DNA from: Deltaproteobacteria bacterium
GTDB taxonomy: Bacteria > Desulfobacterota > BSN033 > UBA1163
Direction of reading: 5' to 3'
Length of the DNA: 64,000 nt
Assembly: GCA_020059605.1 (NCBI GenBank)
Contig: JAGVBT010000164.1
Location: 1-64,000, forward strand
In this document: positions 11,865 through 13,295 of the stretch, piece after piece
Layout: every line of letters starts with the position of its first letter
Position numbering within the stretch: position 1 is the stretch's first letter
Notes under the pieces: generated by a model
What the model saw: only the letters and a program-made list of their open reading frames with translations
Told to the model about the DNA's origin: nothing
Database searches by the model: none
Translations under genes and position numbers: made by a program

Positions 11865-12340
11865 GGCCTTTCCTTTCTTGGAAACAGTGAGGGTTTTGAA
11901 ATCATAAACTTATTTTTTGCTTCCTTCCGTTCCGCCTGCCATGCCACCCATCTGACCCGGGTCTATGAAGGGGCTCCTCCGGAGATTTGAGGTCAAATTC
12001 CATTTCATTTTTCGATCCTCTTGTACACCGGCCAAGGGTCGGGCCGATCGATGGATAGAGCGATAAAAATCAATTTTAACCTCCATGTCGGCCTTTATGC
12101 TGGCAAAAAAGCCCGCAAAGAAGTCGTTTAGAGTTCTTGCGGGCATATACGTTAAGCCTAAAAAGCTCTTTGCAACTTATTATGTTCAAAATTGTAAGCT
12201 AATTTGCACTTAAAAGCAAGAAAATAAAGCTTGTTGTTGAGATAGTATCCCGTTTCAAAGGAATTCTCTTTAGGGGTTATTCCAAAAATCCAGCCATTGC
12301 TAAAGCCTTTTGTTTGTGTTATTAAATTGACATAACAGAG
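11865..12340. other. gap with hairpins but no supported gene
   Basis: The minus-strand ORF 11910-12146 is not convincing, although its end (GQMGGMAGGTEGSKK) looks like the tail of a decayed gene. At 12112-12134 lies a GCCCGCAA...TTGCGGGC hairpin followed on the minus strand by six T. The right part is AT-rich and probably carries the promoter of the cold-shock gene. Confidence 0.45.
12105..12136 (-). terminator. intrinsic terminator-like hairpin on the minus strand
   Basis: Read on the minus strand, GCCCGCAAGAAC pairs with TTCTTTGCGGGC and is followed by TTTTTTG. No minus-strand gene ends here. About 25 bases after the T-run comes ATGGAGGTTAAAATTG. This mirrors the layout of the cold-shock leader (terminator, about 20 bases, GGAGGTTATT, start), so it may be a decayed inverted copy. 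Confidence 0.5.
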
Positions 12341-12341
12341 G

Positions 12342-12397
12342 TTTTTCGAGACCCGCAGTGGAGCAAAGGCTTTTTGGACAAAGCGGGCTTCGAAAAA
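12342..12397 (+). promoter_or_regulatory. leader hairpin 1:2 of the cold-shock gene
   Basis: Segment 1 (TTTTTCGAGACCCGC, 12342-12356) pairs with segment 2 (GCGGGCTTCGAAAAA, 12383-12397) with one mismatch near the middle and a GU pair. It is a long stem just ahead of the terminator hairpin and would leave segment 3 free to pair with segment 4. Confidence 0.55.
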
Positions 12398-12409
12398 AAG
12401 GAAGCCCGC
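12383..12409 (+). promoter_or_regulatory. leader antiterminator hairpin 2:3
   Basis: GCGGGCTTC (12383-12391) and GAAGCCCGC (12401-12409) form a perfect 9-bp stem with the A-rich loop GAAAAAAAG. It uses bases of both neighbouring hairpins, so it excludes hairpins 1:2 and 3:4. Confidence 0.6.
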
Positions 12410-12443
12410 AAAGAGTGAGTTTCCCTCTTTGGCGGGTTTTTTA
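12404..12443 (+). terminator. intrinsic terminator (3:4) in the cold-shock leader
   Basis: CCCGCAAAGAG (12405-12415) pairs with CTCTTTGGCGGG (12425-12436) with one bulged G and a 9-nt loop, followed by TTTTTTATTTT. It sits 30 bases ahead of the csp start codon, after the antiterminator. It would stop the csp transcript unless 2:3 forms. Confidence 0.7.
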
Positions 12444-12472
12444 TTTTAACTCAAGTTCACCTGGAGGTTATT

Positions 12473-12673
12473 ATGTCAAGAGGAAGAGTGAAGTGGTTCA
12501 ACGATCAAAAGGGCTTTGGATTTATTGAAGTGGAAGGAGGTAAAGATGTGTTTGTTCACCACTCGGCAATCACCGGACAGGGTTTCAAATCCCTGAAAGA
12601 AGGTGATGAGGTTGAATTCGAAACCGCCCAGGGCCCCAAAGGTCCTAATGCCACTGATGTAAGAATAGTTTAA
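12473..12673 (+). CDS. cold-shock domain protein
   Basis: A 66-residue CspA-type RNA-binding protein. It has the invariant start [15 protein letters not shown] (RNP1) and DVFVHHSAI (RNP2), and ends at normal length. Such proteins bind single-stranded RNA and melt secondary structure. CTGGAGGTTATT ahead of the ATG is a good RBS. The leader carries a terminator/antiterminator set, so expression may be set by leader folding, perhaps by temperature or by a Csp protein itself. That control is inferred. Confidence 0.95.
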
Positions 12674-12737: not shown

Positions 12738-13295
12738 TTACTCCAAAATCTTCTTCAGCGCCTCGTTGGTTTTTCTTCCTCTTGGCCCTTCACCAGGGAG
12801 GTAGAGCATCACCCCCTTGCCGCTCTTTAAGGGGATGATTTCGATTTTACCTTCGGAAGCCATCTTACTGGTGAATTCAATCGGGTCTTTGTCGAAGTGT
12901 TTCCGGAAGGCCTCATTGAACCCACTGAAAACACTATGGATTCCTTTATAAGGCTCCTTTCTTAATTTCTTAATTCCTTCAATCACAAATTCCTTTTCGG
13001 AAAGGGGTTGGCCCGTGGTTTCCAGTACCTGCCGGAGGATCTCTTCGGTGGTGGGCCTCTTTGGAGCCTCACCCGGAAGGAAAAGCATTACCCCTCCCTT
13101 AAAGGGCCTGGTCTCAATCTTCCCTTCACGGGTCAGCCGGTTCGTGGCTTCCACCGGATTTGTCCCAAAATATTGTCTGAATGCTTCGTTAAAACCGCTG
13201 TAGACAGTGTGGATGCCCCGGAACGGGTCTTTTTTTAACTTGCGAATCGCCTGGAGGACAAATTCTTCTTCTGACAGTTTTCTCTCTTCTTCCAT
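12738..13295 (-). CDS. tandem-duplicated unknown protein, 185 aa
   Basis: Two copies of a ~85-residue domain. Copy 1 begins LSEEEFVLQAIRKLKKDPFRG and copy 2 LSEKEFVIEGIKKLRKEPYKG. Both continue through I-H-x-V-x-SGFNEAFR, an (E)GKIE strand and a VMLxLPGE strand. The helical start followed by a beta hairpin is the pattern of a winged helix, so DNA binding is plausible but unproven. I do not recognise a named family. GGAGG lies ahead of the ATG. A 22-base palindrome lies about 50 bases upstream and could be its operator. Confidence 0.65.
   Translation of the reverse strand: MEEERKLSEEEFVLQAIRKLKKDPFRGIHTVYSGFNEAFRQYFGTNPVEATNRLTREGKIETRPFKGGVMLFLPGEAPKRPTTEEILRQVLETTGQPLSEKEFVIEGIKKLRKEPYKGIHSVFSGFNEAFRKHFDKDPIEFTSKMASEGKIEIIPLKSGKGVMLYLPGEGPRGRKTNEALKKILE

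Follow-up and report, generated by a model that had tools for sequence, protein, structure and literature searches.

The cold-shock protein gene csp of the window (the whole 64,000-nucleotide stretch of deltaproteobacterial DNA that was analysed) lies behind a leader whose four segments can pair in more than one way. Is this leader a transcription attenuator, with 3:4 as the terminator, 2:3 as the antiterminator and csp perhaps controlling itself, as a sequence-only reading had it, or does its structure have another origin? The elements in question are the following.

12297-12325, plus strand: promoter-like site assigned by eye, TTGCTA (12297-12302), a 17-nt spacer and TATTAA (12320-12325).
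12342-12356, plus strand: segment 1, the 5' strand of the basal helix P1 of a small RNA (CM match to R1/R2; P1 pair changes C-G to A-U and C-G to U-A).
12357-12382, plus strand: degenerate remainder of the junction with a P4-like hairpin, GGAGC-AAAG-GCTTTTTGG (56-nt gap relative to G016; CM alignment).
12383-12397, plus strand: segment 2, the 3' strand of P1 (CM alignment, pair changes, G016 alignment).
12400-12447, plus strand: segments 3 and 4, the stem, loop and U-tract of an intrinsic terminator (fold; near-identity in G016).
12463-12467, plus strand: ribosome-binding site (RBS) of csp, GGAGG (by sequence; GGAGGTTATTATG is identical in G016).
12473-12673, plus strand: csp, encoding a cold-shock protein of 66 aa (Pfam PF00313 CSD, E 1.4e-27, 95.8 bits with a cut-off of 27).

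All the pairings that the sequence-only reading described are present at 12342-12447. Segment 1 (TTTTTCGAGACCCGC, 12342-12356) pairs with segment 2 (GCGGGCTTCGAAAAA, 12383-12397); the 2:3 pairing joins GCGGGCTTC (12383-12391) to GAAGCCCGC (12401-12409) by a perfect 9 bp; and segment 3 (GGAAGCCCGCAAAGAG, 12400-12415) pairs with segment 4 (CTCTTTGGCGGG, 12425-12436), followed by the U-tract TTTTTTATTTT. The MFE of 12330-12450 is -43.5 kcal/mol vs -30.4 +/- 3.8 for shuffles (z -3.49; 0/200 shuffles as good), and the MFE fold consists of 1:2 together with 3:4. The 2:3 duplex (-20.2 kcal/mol) was matched by none of 5000 shuffles of segment 3 and is thus beyond chance. In the full leader transcript 1:2 and 3:4 dominate from 15 to 50 °C, the expected pairs of 2:3 ranging from 0.000 to 0.25 at most. 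According to prefix folding, 2:3 is favoured solely when the 3' end of the transcript falls between segments 3 and 4, and 1:2 becomes dominant again once segment 4 starts emerging.

The intrinsic terminator stands between the promoter-like site and csp, the start of which is 26 nt past the U-tract. The site at 12297-12325 was not reported by a strict consensus promoter scan; promoters were assigned by eye. A promoter located after the terminator, the arrangement that the sequence-only reading had named as incompatible with it, was not apparent: no usable one was seen between terminator and csp, and the sole consensus match nearby (12446-12474) cannot serve csp because it overlaps the start codon. 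With this order and no visible second promoter, read-through of the terminator would be the simplest source of csp mRNA.

The closest relative of the locus is that of G016 (UBA2208), whose csp is 95% identical. Homology to the window begins at the promoter and ends with the csp stop codon; no neighbouring gene is common to the two in the stretch compared. The G016 promoter-like site, TTGCTA-17-TATAAA, is 79% identical, and further upstream identity falls to 52%. The terminator (12397-12445) is identical at 48 of its 49 bases (98%) and the stretch from RBS to ATG at 13/13; the csp coding sequences agree at 90% and their third codon positions at 53 of 67 (79%). A further 56 nt of the G016 leader are missing from the window. 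P1 (1:2) is kept in G016, where its innermost C-G has become U-A, a compensatory change. Pairing 2:3, in contrast, is broken there by three mismatches (-5.0 vs -20.2 kcal/mol in the window), with segment 3 unchanged, and formed in 0 of the transcript prefixes computed. Covariation across homologous leaders, the check that the sequence-only reading had itself suggested, hence upholds 1:2 and speaks against 2:3 as an antiterminator. In two copies of the leader away from csp, 2:3 is partial (-14.6 kcal/mol with a 6-bp core in G003, -8.7 kcal/mol in G012), and across the window, G016, G003 and G012 no mutually exclusive 2:3 antiterminator is conserved; by prefix folding, the window is the only copy with a 2:3 strong enough to compete.

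An attenuator of csp transcription, in which Csp or cold shifts the balance towards 2:3 and csp regulates itself, appears unlikely to us on these grounds. It would account for a perfect 9-bp pairing beyond chance that transcripts with a 3' end between segments 3 and 4 prefer, it fits the terminator-like hairpins in the leaders of most csp genes of the family and the known effects of Csp proteins on termination (see below), and an attenuator evolved locally, in the sole copy with a competitive 2:3, is conceivable. It accords poorly with the destruction of 2:3, beside an unchanged segment 3, in G016 as the only csp-linked relative, with the return of 1:2 as segment 4 begins emerging and with the occurrence of segments 1 and 2 without csp.

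The loci away from csp that the leader DNA matches are G012:C49 and G003:C166. These and G016 fold alike, into P1, an arm P2/P3, a hairpin P4 and then an intrinsic terminator. The RNA of the intact relatives is about 110 nt long and forms a three-way junction closed by P1 (segments 1 and 2); P1 has an A.C mismatch, and in G016 a wider internal loop instead. A CM made from the G012 copy alone gave 57.7 bits with G016, 44.2 bits with G003 and 27.9 bits with the window, and CM R2 also recovers G012:C74 (35.5 bits), a shortened copy in which a C-G of P1 is changed to A-U and no terminator was seen. Because MAFFT alignments misplaced P2-P4, a CM-fitted alignment was used for the pair counts. In five sequences 94.8% of the cells were paired and 17 of the 38 pairs had changed on both sides, which 0/500 shuffles equalled, percentages that lean towards the model since the alignment was fitted to it and that come from five copies of four species only; slid structures reached at most 57% paired in the same five sequences. 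The double changes in eight of the nine P2 pairs are the stronger part of this support. The window copy lacks the P2/P3 arm that G016, G012 and G003 have, and may no longer act as the RNA; given this loss, it may represent an RNA in decay, with the terminator retained for csp.

Convincing matches to the RNA were found in 4/17 family genomes, representing four species of this deltaproteobacterial family; in a search of 395 genomes of the phylum, nothing convincing turned up beyond the family. The exact 5' pattern, sought among 84,980 species, gave three records only, all already in this set, and in viral contigs no match. An Rfam search with the window and its relatives did not match the leader, and no description of a csp leader with this RNA was found in the literature searched. 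The RNA family appears previously undescribed and is absent from Rfam; its kind, a small RNA with a terminator, is ordinary, and its csp neighbour unusual. Weak CM matches in G289, G012:C225 and G000:C41 were rejected as chance. Another weak match in G004:C59 (L070, 1501-1590; 25.6 bits, E 0.04), with a P1 of GGTTAGGA...TCTTAACC, is situated directly upstream of an ilvC-like gene and could be either a remote copy of the RNA or a chance hit.

The copy of G003 (RBG_16_49_23) ends in a terminator of its own, and the next gene, about 130 nt past it, has its own promoter-like site. The C49 copy of G012 (UBA1163) likewise ends in its own terminator, with about 250 nt to a pair of ribbon-helix-helix-like and PIN-like genes (named by eye). 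Upstream of the RNA both genomes carry TTGxxx-17-TATAAA sites, again recognised by eye, so that each copy combines a putative promoter of its own with an intrinsic terminator and there is no fixed downstream gene. Because of these stand-alone copies with their own terminators and promoter-like sites, the RNA element looks like a small RNA gene and is regarded as a candidate for one. Its link to csp is not fixed, since the closest csp ortholog of G012 has an ordinary short leader and that of G003 a leader of another type, GTARGTTGTAAG...TTACAACTTAC...GGTGAGTTGTARTG. In G012:C49 (L155, 3457-4560) the RHH-like/PIN-like pair is flanked by the full RNA copy and a 3' fragment, each ended by a terminator.

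That 3' fragment, about 1 kb downstream of the full copy across the two-gene unit, would also suit a mobile repeat, i.e. a MITE-like palindrome inserted upstream of csp and devoid of RNA function, as would the unrelated loci of the copies, their inverted ends (TTTTCGAA...TTCGAAAA) and a scattered species distribution. The compensatory changes inside the arms P2-P4, the terminators belonging to the copies, the similar promoter-like sites upstream of them and a very low copy number make this origin very unlikely. Integron attC sites were considered and rejected; the order of the end sequences does not fit, and promoter-like sites and terminators are present in the units.

We propose that the region probably constitutes a transcription unit for a small structured RNA, placed directly ahead of csp, that csp is expressed by read-through of its terminator and that 2:3 is not a conserved antiterminator. 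The sequence itself shows how the RNA is structured and covaries, that promoter-like site, terminator and RBS are conserved and that the RNA occurs without csp; that the unit is transcribed and terminated, that csp mRNA arises by read-through and that the RNA has any biological role is inferred. RNA polymerase would start at about 12330 from a sigma70-type promoter at 12297-12325; in the transcribed RNA, P1 (segments 1 and 2) would close the three-way junction in the intact relatives; most polymerase would stop at the intrinsic terminator 3:4, at 12437-12447; and the minority reading through would yield the mRNA of csp, which has an RBS and no visible promoter of its own. That only promoter, RNA, terminator and csp are common to the window and G016, and that the terminator is 98% identical while the third positions of csp are at 79%, would count for such a unit. 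Counting against it would be the small number of copies (five, in four species), the absence of P2/P3 from the window copy, in which 2:3 is competitive, and the 6-bp core in G003.

A sub-case of this small RNA unit is a constitutive partial terminator, which would set a fixed low level of csp behind a highly expressed sRNA without any regulation. It needs no switch and would explain why no other part of the leader is as well conserved as the terminator, but a weaker promoter could set a constant level as well, and the unusual frequency of terminator-like hairpins in csp leaders of the family suggests regulation; we consider it doubtful, with a modest chance of being correct.

This frequency comes from a set of 64 csp genes of three families, 50 of them belonging to the family of the window. 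A strong hairpin with a U-tract, ending 28-115 nt before the start, was found in 36 of the 50 family csp genes and, among 25 control genes from the window, in 2, a comparison that is not a probability, the csp genes being related to one another. These frequent hairpins support the general idea that csp is controlled from its leader. Of the attenuator layout, then, the terminator between promoter-like site and csp stands, in company with hairpins in the other csp leaders, and the 2:3 antiterminator, which is not conserved, does not.

The window leader is of another kind than most hairpin-bearing csp leaders, which share GTARGTTGTAAG...[terminator]...TTACAACTTAC...GGTGAGTTGTARTG. Their middle strand TTACAACTTAC can pair with either of two partners, the 5' strand GTARGTTGTAAG (about -12 kcal/mol) and the start region GGTGAGTTGTARTG (mostly about -14.5), an arrangement predicted from sequence that resembles an attenuator joined to a translation switch. 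This leader is conserved in three families of the class, covers the ~140 nt that immediately precede the start codon, usually with an internal terminator, and precedes the csp paralogs L026, L028, L118 (G000:C132), L127 (G000:C10), L017, L025 and others; no Rfam model of its own was found for it. It resembles the window locus in having a promoter, an intrinsic terminator and csp within ~140 nt, but the two have no visible relation in sequence or structure, and in the paralogs the terminator is inside a long helix and the middle strand can also pair with the start region. A third csp type, seen in L132-L134 (G007, G003, G008), consists of a promoter-like site, the terminator GGCCACAAAGACTTTTGACTTTGTGG-T8 and csp, 46-105 nt before the start codon; in the G000 copy (L135) the 5' half of the terminator stem is lost. 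Among viral contigs, no relative of csp closer than 70% was found.

The E. coli cspA thermoregulator acts at the level of translation. Its Rfam model (RF01766) likewise concerns a csp gene with a structured region ahead of it, but there was no match in the window at the gathering cut-off of 78 bits (the G016 ortholog gave 27.7 bits), and the weak matches to related loci fall mainly in the csp coding part. Four-segment attenuators of the trp/his type and riboswitch expression platforms share with the window the sequence of promoter, alternative hairpins, intrinsic terminator and gene; they differ in that the 2:3 antiterminator of the window is not conserved and no known aptamer was found in the window.

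In E. coli, CspD attenuates the terminators of sRNAs such as SgrS, and Csp can raise read-through (PMC9765468); in B. subtilis, CspB and CspD alter read-through (PMC8307031). SgrS resembles our RNA as a small RNA with an intrinsic terminator and predicted read-through into a downstream gene, with the difference that in the window the downstream gene itself encodes a Csp, the action of which on the window terminator is hypothetical. Since Csp alters termination in both organisms, largely in opposite directions, feedback on csp is possible, if unproven. There is a slim chance that in two species the Csp protein loosens the terminator of the small RNA, a feedback that would yield more csp mRNA at the expense of the small RNA.

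In place of a switch that is plausible but not conserved, the locus thus offers something better defined, namely a covarying small RNA with a terminator placed to gate csp, and with most csp genes of the family behind a terminator-like hairpin, self-regulation of Csp by read-through becomes testable outside the usual model organisms. Adjoining csp, the minus strand of the window encodes at 12738-13295 a 185-aa protein of two similar halves with no Pfam match. On the same strand, at 12105-12215, a promoter-like TTGCTT-17-TACAAT is followed within ~100 nt by GCCCGCAAGAACTCTAAACGACTTCTTTGCGGGCTTTTTT, possibly marking a short transcript that diverges from the csp unit and ends at a terminator of its own.
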